Assembly: GCF_004323735.1 (NCBI RefSeq)
Contig: NZ_CP036455.1
Span: 4,645,101-4,709,100, forward strand
Direction: 5' to 3'
DNA from: Streptomonospora litoralis
Lineage (GTDB): Bacteria; Actinomycetota; Actinomycetes; Streptosporangiales; Streptosporangiaceae
DNA length: 64,000 bases
In this document: piece after piece, positions 1,760-63,310 of the stretch
How the letters are laid out: every line of letters begins with the position of its first letter
Numbering within the stretch: position 1 is the first letter of the stretch
The notes under the pieces: model-generated
The model's database searches: none
Told to the model about the DNA's origin: nothing
Seen by the model: only the letters and a program-made list of their open reading frames with translations
Made by a program: the position numbers and the translations under genes

Positions 1760-1951
1760 GTACGGGAGAGCGTCCGTGCAAGCCGGCACGGGCCGCCGAA
1801 GGAGCAATTCCTCCCCAGTGAACCTCTCAGGCGAGACGGACCGTACGGTCGAGACCACTCTGGAAAGCAGGGGTTCTCCGGAACCCCTCGCCGAAGGTGC
1901 AAGCCGCGCCCGCGCGGCGAAGCTCTCAGGCACCATGACAGAGGGGGAGGA
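1760..1951 (+). ncRNA. Tandem glycine riboswitch (gcvT motif, two aptamers)
   Basis: Two successive copies of the glycine aptamer signature are visible. Aptamer I (about 1760-1849) has GGGAGAG, GCCGAAGGAGCAA and CTCTCAGGC. Aptamer II (about 1850-1951) has GCCGAAGGTGCAA, CTCTCAGGCACCATGACAGA and a G-rich end. Two aptamers in series just before gcvT is the classic arrangement, in which glycine binding switches on glycine cleavage genes. No obvious intrinsic terminator follows the second aptamer, and its G-rich 3' end (GGGGGAGG) is close to a translation start. Control may therefore act on ribosome access; that part is inference. Confidence 0.93.
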
Positions 1952-6519: not shown

Positions 6520-6705
6520 GACGGACACATCGGGGAGGGCCTTAAGGCTCGACCGACGGGTAGCGCCAGTTCGGCATGCCCAGACATAGCTGTGCCCCGG
6601 GCGGCATGCTACGCAGAGGCGGACCCGGGGCTTACAGATTTGATGTTACCAGAACACTCACCCCCCGTCCTCTCGCGCCTCGGCCGAGATAGAACGAAGG
6701 TCGCC

Positions 6706-7368
6706 GTGAGCGCTGACGTCCCGCGCTGGATGGTCTCCACGTACTCCTCGCCGCGGCTGGCGCCCTATCTCCAGCACTGCGACGGCGAAGCCGCCCAAGC
6801 GGTGAATCTGTACAACTGGAACGTGATGGTGTCGGCCGCCTTTTACGGACCGCTTCACACGCTGGAGTTGGCTCTGCGCAACGCCGTCCACGACCGCCTG
6901 AGCGCTCACTTCGGACAGGACCACTGGTGGAAAGACGCAACTCTGCACCATCCGATGACGGCCATGGTCGACCAGGCACGCCGACGCTGCCGGGAGCGGT
7001 TGCAGAGGCCCACCACCTCCGACGACGTGGTCACCGAACTCAACTTCGGGTTCTGGGTGGGGCTTCTGGCCCAGAAGTACGACCGGCACCTGTGGGTTCC
7101 CGCTCTCCACAGGGCCTTTCCGCACTTCCGGGCCAAGCGTCGGCAGCTGCATGTGGAGCTGGAAACCCTGCGCCTCCTCCGCAACAGGATCATGCACCAC
7201 GAGCCGATCCACCACCGGCACCTGGCGGCCGACCACGCCACGCTCTACCGAGTCATCTCCTACATCAACCCCGATGCCGCCTCCGGCATCCAGGTTCTCG
7301 ACCGCGTTCCCGAGATACTCCTGACCAAGGAACGAGCATGTCGGGGTGACGTTCCGCCGCAGTACTGA
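6706..7368 (+). CDS. Abi-like HEPN-domain protein (putative RNase toxin)
   Basis: A 220-residue protein resembling the Abi-like (Abi_2) family. Its N-terminal half shows LYNWNVMVSAAFYGPLHTLE and LRNAVHDRL, typical of the family. The C-terminal half carries LRNRIMHHEPIHHRHL, whose R159-x4-H164 fits the HEPN R-x4-6-H motif; HEPN proteins with this motif are usually metal-independent RNases used in phage defence and toxin systems. The GTG at 6706 has CGAAGG eight bases upstream and sits just before the domain; an upstream ATG at 6592 would add an unconserved tail. Only 11 bases separate it from the methyltransferase gene, so the two are co-transcribed. Codon use is less GC-biased than in flanking genes, consistent with horizontal transfer. 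Nuclease activity is inferred. Confidence 0.75.
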   Translation: MSADVPRWMVSTYSSPRLAPYLQHCDGEAAQAVNLYNWNVMVSAAFYGPLHTLELALRNAVHDRLSAHFGQDHWWKDATLHHPMTAMVDQARRRCRERLQRPTTSDDVVTELNFGFWVGLLAQKYDRHLWVPALHRAFPHFRAKRRQLHVELETLRLLRNRIMHHEPIHHRHLAADHATLYRVISYINPDAASGIQVLDRVPEILLTKERACRGDVPPQY

Positions 7369-43925: not shown

Positions 43926-44261
43926 ATGGGCAAGGTACGAATAAGCATCAGCCTCGATCCCGAGCAAGCCGAGCGCATAAGGGCGCACGCCGATAGGGCC
44001 GGGATGGACGTCTCCGCGTACTTCGTCAACGCCGCCACCCGGCAGATGGCGGAAACCGAAGCGATCGAGGACAAGTTTCGAGAAGTCGATGCGCTCATCG
44101 ACAGCGTAGAAGAAGAAGGTCGCTTGCTTGGACCGCCTTCCGACGACGAGACCGAGCCTGTGACCTTGACCGAGGAGGAACGCCGCCACGTCGAAAGAGT
44201 GGTGGGACTCGTGCTCGGAGCGGCAGACGACGATCCTTCGTCGGGAGGTGCCGCCGCTTGA
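43926..44261 (+). CDS. vapB: Antitoxin of a VapBC-like pair
   Basis: A 111-residue protein. Residues 1-45 resemble a ribbon-helix-helix DNA-binding fold (GKVRISISLDPEQAERIRAH, ADRAGMDVSAYFVNAATRQM). The rest is acidic and probably binds the toxin (DETEPVTLTEEERRHVERVV). ATG 43926 lies six bases after a -10 hexamer overlapped by a perfect dyad, which fits self-repression by this protein. The stop overlaps the toxin start (TTGA). Family assigned from layout and partner. Confidence 0.7.
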   Translation: MGKVRISISLDPEQAERIRAHADRAGMDVSAYFVNAATRQMAETEAIEDKFREVDALIDSVEEEGRLLGPPSDDETEPVTLTEEERRHVERVVGLVLGAADDDPSSGGAAA

Positions 44262-44746
44262 CCGAGCGCATCGCGGTGTATGACACGGGGATGCTCATCG
44301 CCATCGCGTCACGCAAGGCAACGGCGGTTCAGATCCATCGGGAAATTCGCGATCGGGCATCGCATCGCCCCATCGTCCCGGGCCTTGCCCTGATCCAGGC
44401 ATGGAGACCGGAACCGGGGCTCGCCCACACTTTGAGCACTTTGCTGAAGGACTGCACAGTCCCGCACGCGAGGTCGTCATCGCCGCCGTTTCGGCGCACC
44501 GATGCCGGACGGCACGATTGCATAGCCTGCTCGACGGCGCCGGACGTCCGGGACCTGCGGCGCATCGGCGCGGCACTGGGGACAGCCGACTTTCCGTCCA
44601 AGAAGCGGCCCGATGCTGTAGACGCCTCAGTCGCCTGGATTGCGATGAAGCACCGCGAATCACTCCTGCTGACCAGCGATCCCCGTGACATGACCGCCTA
44701 CCTTGCTGCCCTACACGACCACGACACCCGGGTGGTCGCTGTGTGA
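44258..44746 (+). CDS. vapC: PIN-domain toxin of a VapBC-like pair
   Basis: A 162-residue PIN-domain RNase-like protein. Acidic residues appear in VYDTGMLIAIASR (Asp9), RPDAVDASVAWIA (Asp119, Asp122) and LLLTSDPRDMTAYLAAL (Asp141). The stretch VPGLALIQAWRPEPGLAHTL is the usual second motif with Gln at the Glu position, as in related actinobacterial proteins. Residues 70-98 (ARSSSPPFRRTDAGRHDCIA onward) have no match in ordinary VapC proteins and look inserted, so activity may be lost or changed. TTG 44258 overlaps the antitoxin stop and follows GGGAGG. Confidence 0.72.
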   Translation: MTERIAVYDTGMLIAIASRKATAVQIHREIRDRASHRPIVPGLALIQAWRPEPGLAHTLSTLLKDCTVPHARSSSPPFRRTDAGRHDCIACSTAPDVRDLRRIGAALGTADFPSKKRPDAVDASVAWIAMKHRESLLLTSDPRDMTAYLAALHDHDTRVVAV

Positions 44747-45698: not shown

Positions 45699-46238
45699 GT
45701 GGTGCGTACTCCAGGCGTGGTGGACCCGCTGTCGCGGTGGAAGGTCGGCTCGGCGCGCACGCGGCTCGGTTGCCGGCGATGTGCGCGGGTGCGGTGGCGA
45801 GCGGACGCGTCGACCGGCCGCCCGGTCGGGGCGGAGCGGCGGGATTCGGACCTATGAGCACATAACGTGACGGCGCGCACCCCGCGTAGGGGCATGGGGA
45901 GAGGCCCGCGGTCGGCGCGGAAGGCTCGGTCGGCACCGGTGCTTCGACGGATCACCGGGCGGGGGACGACGCGTGAACTCGGCGCGTCAGATCAGACGAC
46001 GCCCGTGAATGCGGTGCTCACGACATCATCCCCTTCGAGGTACGGTGCCGGGCCCGCTCGTCCCGCATGCGGGAATCGAGCGCGCCTGAGCGGCACGCGC
46101 CAGATTCAATCCCACCGGCTACCCGCTGTCAACCGCCGTGGCCGCCTCCGGCCGCCGCCCGGCGACCGGCGAGGAAGTGCAGGCGGACCGTTCCACGCAG
46201 CCCGGGGTGCTGCGGCGGGTTCCGAGGCCCGCCGACCG
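45699..46238. other. 540-bp gap upstream of the F420-reductase gene and downstream of the tRNA
   Basis: No gene is supported; the open frames have Arg/Pro/Ala-rich translations, and one reads into the tRNA. A perfect 14-bp palindrome TCCCGCATGCGGGA lies at 46061-46074. The promoter of the leftward fusion gene is expected near 45700-45870. No integrase or attachment repeat was noticed beside the tRNA. Confidence 0.4.
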
Positions 46239-46312
46239 TACCCCCGGTCGGATTCGAACCGACACTTGTGACCCTTTTAGGGGGCCTGCCTCTACCATTG
46301 GGCTACGAGGGC
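46239..46312 (-). tRNA. tRNA with unusual anticodon loop (CCUAAAA; nominal anticodon UAA)
   Basis: On the reverse strand a full cloverleaf can be drawn: acceptor GCCCTCG/CGGGGGT (two G-U pairs), D arm with GCC/GGC and the GG of AATGGTAG, anticodon stem GGCCC/GGGTC, variable loop ACAAGT, T arm GTCGG-TTCGAAT-CCGAC, discriminator A, and no encoded CCA. The anticodon loop (46275-46281, reversed) reads CCTAAAA. In the standard register the anticodon is UAA, which would read UUA (Leu), but position 33 is C instead of the near-universal U, and the short variable loop is not that of tRNA-Leu. Decoding identity is therefore uncertain; reading AAA is another register. Confidence 0.75.
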
Positions 46313-46318
46313 GGCACC

Positions 46319-46324
46319 ATCATA
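46319..46324 (-). promoter_or_regulatory. -10 box (TATGAT) directly before the tRNA
   Basis: On the reverse strand TATGAT ends exactly six bases before the first G of the tRNA. Transcription would then begin at or within a base of the mature 5' end, with little or no leader for RNase P to remove. No convincing -35 was seen at the normal distance. Confidence 0.6.
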
Positions 46325-46624: not shown

Positions 46625-48004
46625 TCAGCTGACGCGGCGCAGCAGGCGGCCGTTCTCGACCTGCGGCTTGGCCGCGCTCTCGAACGCCTGGCGGGGCTCT
46701 TCCATCTCCGGCAGCGCGGCGTAGTCGCGGCGCAGGAAGAAGCCGACGATCCAGTCCGCCAGCACGCGCGCCTTCCGGTTGAAGGTGGGCACCGCGTAGA
46801 GGTGGTAGGAGCGGTGGGCGTACCAGGCCAGGCGACCGGTCAGCTTGATCCGGCCGAAGAGCTGGGCCGCGCCCTTGTGCAGCCCGAGTCCGGCGACCGC
46901 GCCGAGGTTGCTGTGGCGGTAGGGCCGCATCTCGGTGCCGCGCAGCGCGGCGATGACGTTGTCGGCCAGGACCGGGGCCTGGCGGACCGCGTTCTGCGCG
47001 TTGGGCGGGTAGAAGCCCCCGGCGCCGTCGGGCACTTGGGCGTTGTCGCCGCCGGCGAAGGCGTTCTCCACCCCGTTGAGGGTGAGGTACTCGCTGGTGT
47101 CGAGGTGGCCCTTGGGACCCAGCGGCAGATCGCCGGCCTGCACGACCGGGCTCGGCTTGACGCCGGCGGTCCACACGAGCGTGCCCGCGTCGAACTCGGT
47201 GCCGTCGCTGAGCTTGATGTGCTGGTCGACGGCCGACTCCAGGAAGGTGGACAACCGGATGTCGATCCCGCGCCGCTTCAGCTGGTTCAGCGCCTTCTCG
47301 CCGACGTCGGCGCCGACCTCGGGCAGGATCTTGTCGGCGGCCTCGATCAGGTAGAAGCGCAGGTCGTCGGCGCTGATGGAGGGGTAGATCCGGGTGGCGT
47401 CGCGGGCCAGGTCCTCCAGTTCGGCGATCGCCTCGGCACCGGCGAAGCCGCCGCCGACGAAGACGAAATTGAGGGCCTTGCGGCGGATCTCCGGGTCGTC
47501 GGTGGAGTCGGCGATGTTCAGCTGCTCCAGCACGTGGTTGCGCAGGAACACGGCCTCCTCGACCGTCTTGATGCCGATCCCCCACTCGGCGAGCCCGGGG
47601 ATGGGCAGCGTGCGGGAGACGGCGCCCGTCGCCATCACGATGTAGTCGTAGGAGATCTCCCGCGGCTCGCCCACGGCGGGTTCGAAGTGGGCCGAACGGG
47701 CCGCGTGGTCGACGCGGATCACCCGCCCGGTGAGCACGCGCGCCCGGTTGAATACCCTGCGCAGCGGCACGACGACGTGGCGCGGCGAGATGCTGCCCGC
47801 CGCGATCTCGGGGAGGAAGGGCTGGTAGGTCATGTAGGAGTTGGGGTCGACGACCGTGATGCGGGCTTCGCCGGGCCCCAGCGTCTTCTCCAGCCGCTTC
47901 GCGGTGTACATCCCGAGGTAGCCGCCGCCGACGATGAGGACGTGCGGGATCTCCGCCTCGTCACCGCCGCCGTGCACCAGCCGGTAGTTCCTGCCTTCGG
48001 TCAT
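46625..48004 (-). CDS. ndh: Type II NADH dehydrogenase (NDH-2)
   Basis: Single-chain, non-proton-pumping NADH:menaquinone oxidoreductase on the inner membrane face. The 459-residue length is typical. The FAD-binding motif is VLIVGGGYLGMYTAKRLE near residue 22, and the NADH-binding motif is FVFVGGGFAGAEAIAELEDL near 176. MTYQPFLPEIAAGSISPRHV, the FAD-site FAGGDNAQVP and the C-terminal amphipathic region FNRKARVLADWIVGFFLRRD also fit. Two Rex-type boxes lie upstream, suggesting repression when NADH is low. Start ATG 48004. Confidence 0.94.
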   Translation of the reverse strand: MTEGRNYRLVHGGGDEAEIPHVLIVGGGYLGMYTAKRLEKTLGPGEARITVVDPNSYMTYQPFLPEIAAGSISPRHVVVPLRRVFNRARVLTGRVIRVDHAARSAHFEPAVGEPREISYDYIVMATGAVSRTLPIPGLAEWGIGIKTVEEAVFLRNHVLEQLNIADSTDDPEIRRKALNFVFVGGGFAGAEAIAELEDLARDATRIYPSISADDLRFYLIEAADKILPEVGADVGEKALNQLKRRGIDIRLSTFLESAVDQHIKLSDGTEFDAGTLVWTAGVKPSPVVQAGDLPLGPKGHLDTSEYLTLNGVENAFAGGDNAQVPDGAGGFYPPNAQNAVRQAPVLADNVIAALRGTEMRPYRHSNLGAVAGLGLHKGAAQLFGRIKLTGRLAWYAHRSYHLYAVPTFNRKARVLADWIVGFFLRRDYAALPEMEEPRQAFESAAKPQVENGRLLRRVS

Positions 48005-48489: not shown

Positions 48490-49524
48490 TCAGGCTCCGC
48501 CGGAGCCCTCGGCGGTGTGCTCGGCGCCGTCCTCGGGGGAGTCCAGACACAGCCCCCAGGCGATGCCGTCGAGGATGTCGTGCTCGCTGGCCACGAACCC
48601 GGCCGCCCCCGTGCGGGTCACCACACGCGAGAGGATCAGCGCGCCGGCGCCGATCACGTCCACGCGGCCCGGGTGCATAACGCCGATCGCCGCCCGCTGT
48701 CCGTGGGTCATCGCGAGCAGTTCCCGGGCGATCTCGTGCACCCGCTCGGCGGGCACCCAGGAGTGGTGGATGCGTTCGGGGTCGTACTCGGGCAGGTCCA
48801 GGGCGATGCCCGCCACCGTGGTGGCCGTCCCGGCCACGCACACCAGCGAACCGGCCGCCTCCAGCGGGACGGTTGCGGCCGCCTCGTCCAGGGCGGCGTC
48901 GACGTCGGCCGTCGCGGCCGAGATCTGCTGTGCGCTCGGCGGGTCGTCGGTGAGATGGCGCTCGGCCAGCCGCACGCAGCCGATGTCCACCGACCGCGCG
49001 GCCCGCACCGGCCCCGCATCGGCGGGCGCGTTCTGCGGATCGCGGTGGCCCAGCACGAATTCGGTGGAGCCGCCGCCGATGTCGACGATCAGAAACGGCG
49101 CGTCCAGGCCGCTGTCGGTCCCCTCCAGCTCGGCGGTCGCGCCGATGAACGACAGCTCGGCCTCCTCGTCACCGGTGATCACCTCGGGGTCGACGCCGAT
49201 GATCCCGCGCACCCCCTCGATGAACTCCTCGCGGTTCCCCGCGTCGCGGGTGGCGCTGGTGGCCACCATGCGCACGGCATCGGGCCCGGGTTCGACGCCG
49301 TTCTCGCGCATCAGTTCGGCGTAGGTGCGCAGCGCGGCGAACGTGCGCTCCAGCGCCTCGGGTGTGAACTCGCCGGTGCGGTCGACACCCTGGCCCAACC
49401 GCACGACCTCCATGCGCCGCTCCAGATCGACGAGCTGGACCTCGCCGTCCTCCATCCCGATCAGTGCCGATACCAGCAGCCGGATGGAGTTGGTGCCGCA
49501 GTCCACGGCGGCCACAGTGGTCAC
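48490..49524 (-). CDS. ppx: Exopolyphosphatase (Ppx/GppA family)
   Basis: Removes terminal phosphate from polyphosphate or pppGpp. The 344-residue length is that of the short actinobacterial form. Motifs: VAAVDCGTNSIRLLV (first phosphate loop), VVRLGQGVDRTGEFTPEALE, MVATSATRDAGNREEFI, ITGDEEAELSFIGA, FLIVDIGGGSTEFVLG (second phosphate loop) and VAGTATTVAGIALDL. GTG 49524 overlaps the stop of the DUF501 gene in GTGA and has GAGGGGA upstream, so the two are coupled. The ftsB-eno and DUF501-ppx order here is common in actinobacteria. Confidence 0.93.
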   Translation of the reverse strand: MTTVAAVDCGTNSIRLLVSALIGMEDGEVQLVDLERRMEVVRLGQGVDRTGEFTPEALERTFAALRTYAELMRENGVEPGPDAVRMVATSATRDAGNREEFIEGVRGIIGVDPEVITGDEEAELSFIGATAELEGTDSGLDAPFLIVDIGGGSTEFVLGHRDPQNAPADAGPVRAARSVDIGCVRLAERHLTDDPPSAQQISAATADVDAALDEAAATVPLEAAGSLVCVAGTATTVAGIALDLPEYDPERIHHSWVPAERVHEIARELLAMTHGQRAAIGVMHPGRVDVIGAGALILSRVVTRTGAAGFVASEHDILDGIAWGLCLDSPEDGAEHTAEGSGGA

Positions 49525-50144
49525 CTGGTCGTCCCCTCGGTGTCGTCGTCTCGCCCGCCCGGCCCGGTGCCCCGGGCGGTGCCGCCGGAGGAACCGGCGG
49601 CCGCGTCCTCGCGGTCCGCGCAGGCGCACGGGCCGTCCTCCCACCAGCTCGGCAGGGCGTCCAGGGCCTCGCGGCCGAAGAGGTTGGCCCCCGGCCGCGC
49701 CAGCTCATGGGCCACCAGAGCGTGCAGGCACTTGACCCGCTCGGGCATACCGCCCGCGCTCTGCATGCCCTCGGGCAGCGGCGCGGAGCCGTCGCGGGCG
49801 GTCTGCTCGGCGCGCTCGGCCAGGTAGCCGCGGTGGGCGCGCTCGTAGGCGGCGCGCAGCTCGGGGTCTTCGGCCAGCCGCTCCTGCATCCGGCGCATCA
49901 GCCCGCCGGCCTCCAGAGTGCCGATCGCCGAGGCCGCGCGGGGGCAGGTGAGGTAGTAGAGGGTGGGGAACGGCGTGCCGTCCTCCAGCCGCGGCGCCGT
50001 GCGCACCACGTCGGGCAGGCCGCACGGGCAGCGGTGGGCCACGGCGCGCAACCCGCGCGGGGGGCGGCCCAGCTGCCGCCGCACCGCCGCGGCGTCGGCG
50101 GCGGGAAAGCGGTCGGCGGATGCGGCGTGTTCGGCGGAAGTCAT
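49521..50144 (-). CDS. DUF501 family protein
   Basis: A 207-residue protein: VRRQLGRPPRGLRAVAHRCP, CGLPDVVRTAPRLEDGTPFP, TLYYLTCPRAASAIGTLEAG, AYERAHRGYLAERAEQT, GGMPERVKCLHALVAHELAR and GPCACAD. The Cys/His pattern (H-x-C-P-C-G, Y-L-T-C-P, K-C-L-H, C-x-C) may bind a metal. The function of DUF501 is not known. It is encoded between ftsB-eno and ppx in many actinobacteria. ATG 50144; the end overlaps ppx. A short Gly/Thr-rich tail is present. Confidence 0.9.
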   Translation of the reverse strand: MTSAEHAASADRFPAADAAAVRRQLGRPPRGLRAVAHRCPCGLPDVVRTAPRLEDGTPFPTLYYLTCPRAASAIGTLEAGGLMRRMQERLAEDPELRAAYERAHRGYLAERAEQTARDGSAPLPEGMQSAGGMPERVKCLHALVAHELARPGANLFGREALDALPSWWEDGPCACADREDAAAGSSGGTARGTGPGGRDDDTEGTTR

Positions 50145-59070: not shown

Positions 59071-59450
59071 CCCGGCCTCCCGACCATTCACCGCCGTCTC
59101 TTCTGCGCAACAGCGTATGCCGCCTGCCGGACGGACGGCACGCGTGCCCGCGGGCTCCTCGCCGACCGCTCGGACCACCCGCCTCTCGCGGGCCCCCGGC
59201 GCCGGGAACACCCCGGGCGGACCCAGCGTTACCACAGGTGTCCACCGCACAACACGTCCACGCGGGAAGCTCCGCAGCAGCAGGGGCACCCGGCCGGTCC
59301 TCCGACGAATCCGACCCCTCGCTCGCGCTCGGCGAGGAGACCGCGCGGCGGCCGCGGCGCACCGCCCCCGCCGCCGCGCCCGATCCGACCGAAACCCCGC
59401 AGCCGTGCCGCCCGCCCGCGGCGGCTCCGCGAGGACATCCAAGGAGGGAC

Positions 59451-59698
59451 ATGACCGGGGCCACATCCCGGATACCCGACTCCGTGCACCCGCGTGCGGC
59501 GGGGAGCGTAGGCTTGCCTGTGGGGAGCCCGCCGACCCGCCGCGGGACCGGCCCGGCAGCGCGCGCATGCGGCGCACCGCGATCGGCCGCCGAACGCACC
59601 GGGAGCCCGCTCCCTTCGACCGCGCACTGCAGGAGCACCGCGGGCCGCGCGGAGCGCAGCACGGCCGATTCCACTGCCACAGTCTTTCCTCTGGTGAT

Positions 59699-59702
<4 letters not shown>
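59451..59702 (+). CDS. Small ORF coupled to mfd, unknown product
   Basis: The ATG at 59451 is preceded by an ideal ribosome site, AAGGAGGGAC. The 83-residue frame ends with TGA overlapping the mfd ATG (ATGA at 59699-59702). The product (MTGATSRIPDSVHPRAAGSV onward) is Ser/Ala/Arg/Thr-rich with no recognised domain, and codon use is less GC3-biased than in real genes nearby. The site and the overlap suggest that its translation brings ribosomes to mfd, which has only a weak site of its own. It could be a regulatory leader ORF rather than a protein gene. Confidence 0.4.

Positions 59703-63310
<3,608 letters not shown>

Follow-up and report, generated by a model that had tools for sequence, protein, structure and literature searches.

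Positions 46239-46324 of the window, that is, of the whole 64-kb stretch of Streptomonospora litoralis DNA that was analysed, raise the question of what a tRNA gene does that bears the leucine anticodon UAA but has neither the long variable arm expected of leucine tRNAs nor the usual U at position 33. With high confidence, the gene is regarded here as a functional, single-copy tRNA-Leu(UAA), the counterpart by position of a class II gene, whose long arm was most likely lost in place and whose product would be charged with leucine and read UUA; charging and decoding are inferred. Its oddities belong to a wide lineage feature rather than to a stray or decayed gene, and the ordinary job of inserting leucine at UUA is very probably done by a tRNA of unexpected shape.

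The gene, its fold and its promoter

A tRNA-Leu(taa) at 46238-46312 on the minus strand was the single tRNA found by ARAGORN in the window, and the Rfam model RF00005 scored 46312-46239 of the same strand at 47.8 bits against a cut-off of 29. The elements of the gene are as follows.

46239-46312, minus strand: tRNA-Leu(UAA) of class I, with a short variable region; no other tRNA gene of the genome has a UAA anticodon; from ARAGORN, Rfam RF00005, fold and covariation
46275-46281, minus strand: anticodon loop CCUAAAA (C32 C33 U34 A35 A36 A37 A38); from the sequence and the base-33 comparison
46264-46269, minus strand: variable region ACAAGU, 6 nt, with U48 at its 3' end; from the sequence
46319-46324, minus strand: -10 box TATGAT, 6 nt before base 1; from the sequence and the upstream comparison

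C33 corresponds to position 46280 and the anticodon UAA to 46279-46277. The minimum-energy fold is the cloverleaf with the loop CCUAAAA, which together with the Rfam score upholds the cloverleaf drawn in the first-pass annotation, with a z-score against shuffles of just -1.54. The acceptor stem ends in G1-U72, and the discriminator A73 is followed by CGG, so CCA is not encoded. Other registers of the anticodon loop were considered and rejected, since none gave a paired stem either by eye or in the fold, and no other register or isotype was assigned by ARAGORN or RF00005. The anticodon and the short variable arm are confirmed by the sequence and by ARAGORN; class II tRNAs have variable regions of at least 10 nt, as do the genome's own leucine tRNAs with anticodons CAG and GAG (15-16 nt), and the 6 nt found here place the gene outside that class. 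The oddity of position 33 also stands, as 47 of the genome's 48 distinct tRNA sequences have T at this position and tRNA-Leu(UAA) alone has C.

The span of 46239-46324 that was originally marked comprises the tRNA plus the -10 box on the minus strand, and TATGAT does lie six bases before base 1. This spacing predicts a transcript start at or next to base 1, from the box itself, with CCA presumably added afterwards. TAnnnT exactly 6 nt upstream was found in 59 of 86 distinct upstream regions of the named C33 loci (9 more have it at 7 nt) and at 23 of 28 loci of the own genome and its near relatives. Among other short-arm loci of the class, the motif stands at 6-7 nt in 2 of 28 and at 8-9 nt in 6 of 28; for the long-arm loci of the class, the corresponding counts are 1 and 13 of 26. 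Within the genome itself, 4 of 54 tRNA genes have TAnnnT 6-7 nt before base 1, the other three being those for Lys-UUU, Ser-CGA and Ser-GGA. A transcript with no leader, as suggested earlier, is thus plausible but not special to this gene, and a leaderless promoter as a special trait finds no support in view of the four genes that share the close spacing. A different arrangement was seen at the Frankia loci L156, L164, L172 and L173, where a conserved block CCTACGTAGC..GGTAGAAA precedes tRNA-Leu(UAA) by about 20-45 bases, in contrast to the TATGAT pattern of other loci.

Leucine identity, the synthetase and the meaning of UUA

The genome (5.8 Mb in two contigs) contains 54 tRNA genes over the Rfam cut-off, for all of which the anticodon was read. 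UAA occurs in one gene only, and the idea that this might be an extra UAA tRNA is thereby corrected. Three of the five leucine isoacceptors, UAA, CAA and UAG, are without the long arm, which is kept by CAG (84 nt) and GAG (86 nt). The UAA tRNA is 75 nt as called, and its two short sisters are located as follows.

C1:2453241-2453314: own tRNA-Leu(CAA), short arm, 75 nt as called
C1:1006665-1006738: own tRNA-Leu(UAG), short arm, 75 nt as called

Leucine identity in E. coli resides in A73, A15-U48, G18G19 and A20a, and E. coli tRNA-Leu variants deprived of the long arm remain active (PMC9976931, section 12); A14 is also named for E. coli in the available parts of that review. The full set (A73, A14, A15-U48, G18G19 and A20a) was found in tRNA-Leu(UAA) together with the leucine anticodon. 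When the 48 distinct tRNA sequences of the genome were scored, A14, A15-U48, A20a and A73 occurred jointly in all five leucine tRNAs and in none of the 43 others, one row of which, Lys-CUU, was misparsed in the T arm. The set recurs in 33 of 34 distinct C33 tRNAs from the named loci and in 17 of 19 from the own genome and near relatives, the three misses apparently arising from a GGG run that shifts the register of the scoring. Among class loci it was present in 25 of 25 distinct short-arm tRNAs (30 loci) and in 17 of 23 tRNAs from long-arm loci, where the six misses are real or unparsed departures at position 20a. The first-pass annotation had held the missing long arm against leucine; this argument falls because two sister isoacceptors are also short and the identity set is complete.

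A single leucyl-tRNA synthetase (LeuRS) above the family cut-off was found in the genome, as in 14 of 15 other genomes, the fifteenth being an assembly with 6% contamination. Judged from sequence and literature, this bacterial-type enzyme would charge tRNA-Leu(UAA) with leucine, and it would do so by reading A73 and the D-loop/15-48 corner (A14, A15-U48, G18G19, A20a) instead of the arm, as E. coli LeuRS does. A change in LeuRS as the simple partner of the short arm was considered and discarded, since the architecture of the enzyme does not track arm length, and no compensating change came to light. LeuRS proteins without the insert before MSKS occur in the long-arm families f26, f34, f7 and f16 and in the short-arm families f1 and f38, and the same shorter match to the LeuRS profile is shared by two long-arm families, f20 and f15, and two short-arm families, f21 and f28; in this comparison the script recovered no MSKS motif in 5 of the 15 proteins, the own one included, and took a wrong motif in a sixth. 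The LeuRS of two Frankia genomes, G056 and G078, match the bacterial profile over different ranges and look like two types within one family.

The meaning of the codons was examined by replacing TTA, TTG and CTA with X, aligning homologues and reading the residue opposite, with CTT as the comparison. The set comprised 730 ORFs (249,292 codons), which are the author's own GC3-based calls, from 116 C33-bearing loci, of which 115 gave ORFs, plus the window and the LeuRS locus. Leucine was the majority residue at 521 of 618 TTG sites and 89 of 112 CTA sites, compared with 475 of 570 CTT sites, at the C33-bearing loci. Of the genome's own tRNAs, the short CAA and UAG forms serve TTG and CTA, and the long GAG form serves CTT. 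Since TTG and CTA align with leucine about as CTT does, the short-arm CAA and UAG tRNAs very probably deliver leucine, the arm lengths being those of the own genome; of the 22 genomes that represent the window's family in the class sample, 13 matched the short-arm pattern for CAA and 18 that for UAG. For TTA just four informative sites were obtained, two with a leucine majority, one with a Phe/Leu mixture (F 35, L 28) and one with Lys, and these sites would be compatible with leucine without proving it.

The ORFs of the window contain three TTA codons, whose use is putative, as each precedes, on the N-terminal side, the part with matches to known families. TTA accounts for 2 of 17,012 codons in four stretches taken from elsewhere in the genome, and the connection to a rare codon made by the first-pass annotation holds. 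As in the bldA type, the gene is the only tRNA for UUA and UUA is very rare. The leucyl-tRNA would then read a codon used about 1-2 times per 10,000.

Genomic place and the spread of short arms and C33

The gene has conserved neighbours, two of which are listed here.

46625-48004, minus strand: NDH-like pyridine nucleotide-disulphide oxidoreductase gene (Pfam PF07992, synteny), a frequent upstream neighbour in short- and long-arm genomes
48490-49644, minus strand: Ppx/GppA phosphatase gene (Pfam PF02541), the second conserved neighbour

A DNA search with the tRNA gene matched 39 of 60 genomes, the own genome included, with six genomes of the window's family among the misses. The tRNA-Leu(UAA) gene lies downstream of the NDH gene on the same strand at 84 of 104 named C33 loci and at 21 of 28 loci of the own genome and near relatives, while an NDH gene was found at 0 of 30 loci of other own tRNAs used as a control; a Ppx/GppA homologue was present in the fetched stretch at 75 of 116 C33 loci. 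The same place downstream of NDH was found at 16 of 30 short-arm and 17 of 26 long-arm loci of the class. It is thus one positional gene, with a long arm in some families and a short arm in others, and the arm was most likely altered in situ, given how often both forms follow the same NDH gene. Its counterpart by position is the ordinary class II tRNA-Leu(UAA) gene of the relatives.

The spread of the two forms was surveyed by pattern searches within Actinomycetota. Among 246 genomes of the class, 171 matched the short-arm UAA pattern and 62 the long-arm pattern, with 19 matching neither and 6 both, several of these 6 looking like chance matches. The window's family contributes 22 genomes to this sample, every one of which matches the short UAA form, and all 21 of the family f20 have the long form, with no short one. 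The family f20 is presumably Streptomyces, an assignment made partly from the bldA-like sequence. The short-arm CAA pattern occurs in 144 of the 246 genomes, f20 among them, and the short-arm UAG pattern in 27, of which 18 belong to the window's family. In a phylum sample that overlaps the class sample, 76 of 296 genomes matched the short UAA pattern, some of them by chance. On a tree of the NDH genes, the arm state changes at least four times (two of these changes forced by starred branches) and base 33 at least three times; the tree was made by a quick method from 50 rows, is not a species tree, and contains long branches that make the stars less trustworthy.

The loop CCUAAAA with C33 is present in all five other Streptomonospora genomes searched, and in the family sample the C33 pattern was found in 80 of 150 genomes, in 77 by a real tRNA according to the author's reading, so that the loop asked about in the first-pass annotation is indeed conserved in relatives. 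Among the matches listed (80 of 116), the C33 genomes belong to Nocardiopsis, Streptomonospora, Thermobifida, Thermomonospora, some Actinomadura and Actinoallomurus, as well as to Frankia, Parafrankia and Pseudofrankia; because of the last three, the family f19 was taken for Frankiaceae. In the class sample, the C33 pattern proved by the author's reading to be a true tRNA in 14 of 22 genomes of the window's family and in 19 of 20 of f19. The remaining f19 genome, G229, carries a long-arm U33 tRNA-Leu(UAA) (C79:12028-12068, locus L124) and would make a useful outgroup for dating arm loss and C33. As it is alone in f19 with a long arm and U33, short arm and C33 therefore go together within that family. 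By eye, C33 was seen on no long-arm tRNA-Leu in the class and family samples, though the pattern allowed long arms. On the NDH tree, the Frankia genes grouped with long-arm U33 families under a starred branch, so that Frankia seems to have evolved the short arm and C33 anew, with transfer of the tRNA gene as an alternative.

C33 is a stable feature that probably arose in at least two lineages, and most likely a tolerated, near-neutral change of the U-turn that slightly weakens decoding. A yeast-tRNA study of the 1980s is said to have found that amber suppression did not essentially require U33. No link of C33 with rarer UUA was found, TTA making up 14 of 81,693 codons with C33 and 13 of 89,437 with U33 in five genomes each, with the first 60 codons per ORF dropped. 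A bolder proposal, for which the chances seem low, is that arm loss combined with the U33-to-C33 change is a repeated route to a deliberately slow (or C-to-U edited) reader of UUA, taken independently in Frankiaceae and in the Nocardiopsis/Actinomadura group; if true, this would be a UUA-based translational switch without the class II design of bldA.

Alternative readings and known leucine tRNAs

Decay was a possibility left by the first-pass annotation; C33 and the absent arm would then mark a tRNA or pseudogene that has survived by chance, a reading that is now scarcely credible. It could draw on C33, on the G1-U72 end pair, on the Rfam score, which is the lowest among the genome's 54 tRNAs above the cut-off, and on a codon that is almost unused. 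However, G1-U72 is also present in the own Glu, Lys and Met tRNAs, and an alignment of 50 short-arm sequences (49 distinct, out of 71 at hand) shows standard pairing in 99.6% of its 980 base-pair cells and two-sided changes in 15 of 20 pairs, values reached in 0 of 500 shuffles. Neither the broken stems nor the missing conservation of a tRNA pseudogene was found; the loop is the same throughout the other searched genomes of the genus, the -10 box is conserved, and the genome has this UAA tRNA alone. Reassignment of UUA, by a tRNA with a leucine anticodon that accepts another amino acid, would suit the class I shape and the leucine majority at just two of the four informative TTA sites, yet it is highly improbable in view of the full identity set, which within the genome is exclusive to leucine tRNAs, of the positional orthology with class II tRNA-Leu(UAA), and of UUG and CUA, which the genome's short-arm sister tRNAs read and which stand opposite leucine about as often as CUU. 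An altered position 33 and a near-absent codon might also be expected of a tRNA working outside ordinary translation, as a tRNA-like regulator or as an amino-acid donor for a biosynthetic enzyme. This role is very unlikely for the only UAA anticodon serving a codon still in use, and the conserved neighbours, NDH, Ppx and farther housekeeping genes such as that for enolase, include none that is biosynthetic in the donor sense.

Unlikely, though of greater weight, is an origin in which the arm was never lost and the gene was instead overwritten with a short tRNA-Leu of phage or plasmid origin. Short-arm tRNA-Leu with the same or a similar D-arm motif occurs in phages of Streptomyces, Bacillus, Synechococcus, Sinorhizobium and Microbacterium and in a Curtobacterium plasmid; 13 of 16 distinct leucine tRNAs in eight phage and plasmid records were short-armed, these eight being taken from 38 records with a match; one Nonomuraea record was examined besides. 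Moreover, the short and long forms differ throughout, beyond the arm. Against overwriting, many short- and long-arm genomes share the NDH-linked place (gene conversion from an imported copy would look alike), at which all five C33 relatives of the genus also have tRNA-Leu(UAA). In viral contigs, the strict short-arm pattern matched 0 stretches and a looser pattern two (L334 and L335, IMG/VR). A 635-kb uncultured phage (LR745206.1, 388749-390023) has two tRNA-Leu(UAA) genes a short distance apart, one of 76 nt with the short arm and one of 92 nt with the long arm.

The preferred reading, a working tRNA-Leu(UAA) that lost its arm in place, departs from the literature at hand. According to the available parts of a 2023 review, the long arm of tRNA-Leu is kept everywhere except in animal mitochondria (PMC9976931), and the consulted portions of this review and of PMC7609411 place tRNA-Leu in class II without mention of a bacterial exception. 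In the open-licence literature as far as its text was available, no description of short-arm tRNA-Leu as a general actinobacterial feature was found, and one may exist elsewhere. In the accessible text of PMC6582537, one short-loop tRNA-Leu(TAG) is noted in a mycobacterial tRNA gene cluster; it resembles the present gene as a bacterial tRNA-Leu with a short variable loop, but it is a cluster gene beside a normal long-loop isoacceptor, whereas the present gene has no UAA companion and is one of three short forms among five isoacceptors. For M. tuberculosis, tRNA-Leu-2, 3 and 5 are named as long-looped in the part of PMC11541572 at hand, a naming which suggests that the other leucine tRNAs of that species are without long loops. 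The animal mitochondrial tRNA-Leu(UUR) is likewise a leucine tRNA without the long arm, the human one being specified by A73 and A14 (PMC9976931, in its available parts); in contrast to it, the present gene lies on a bacterial chromosome and has a regular cloverleaf and an ordinary bacterial LeuRS. With the class II tRNA-Leu(UAA), including bldA of Streptomyces, it shares the anticodon, the codon, the leucine set, the rarity of the codon in high-GC genomes and the NDH-linked place (seen at 17 of 26 long-arm class loci), and it differs from the bldA type in its C33 and in lacking the long variable arm. The developmental significance of bldA may not extend beyond Streptomycineae, as stated in the available text of PMC4255298.

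The long-arm rule is contradicted by most of the 246 class genomes for UAA (171 pattern matches) and by many for CAA (144). If f20 is Streptomyces, then the form of the classic regulatory tRNA bldA is the less common one in the class sample, and isotype rules based on the long arm will misjudge actinobacterial genomes. The short-arm genomes offer natural experiments on how LeuRS tells leucine tRNAs from others, in that the gene keeps its place whether or not it has the arm, is served by one LeuRS and has changed state several times, and C33 offers a natural test of how far bacterial decoding needs U33.

Several other features were observed in the window. About 1.5 kb from the tRNA, a ribbon-helix-helix/NikA-like gene is followed, with an overlap of 4 bases, by an ORF of 162 aa (43926-44746, plus strand). 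The 162-aa protein had no matches in Pfam, NCBIfam or PADLOC, and the pair resembles a toxin-antitoxin system, for which a PIN-type toxin would be a guess based on sequence alone. An Abi-like protein is encoded at 6592-7368 (plus strand), below the cut-off in Pfam and matching the PADLOC model PD-T4-5 with an E value of 2.7e-14. The C-terminal part of a 1397-aa protein at 59117-63310 (plus strand) matches several defence helicase models, the best with an E value of 5e-11. A glycine riboswitch aptamer at 1850-1951 (plus strand) scored 67.5 bits, over the Rfam cut-off.
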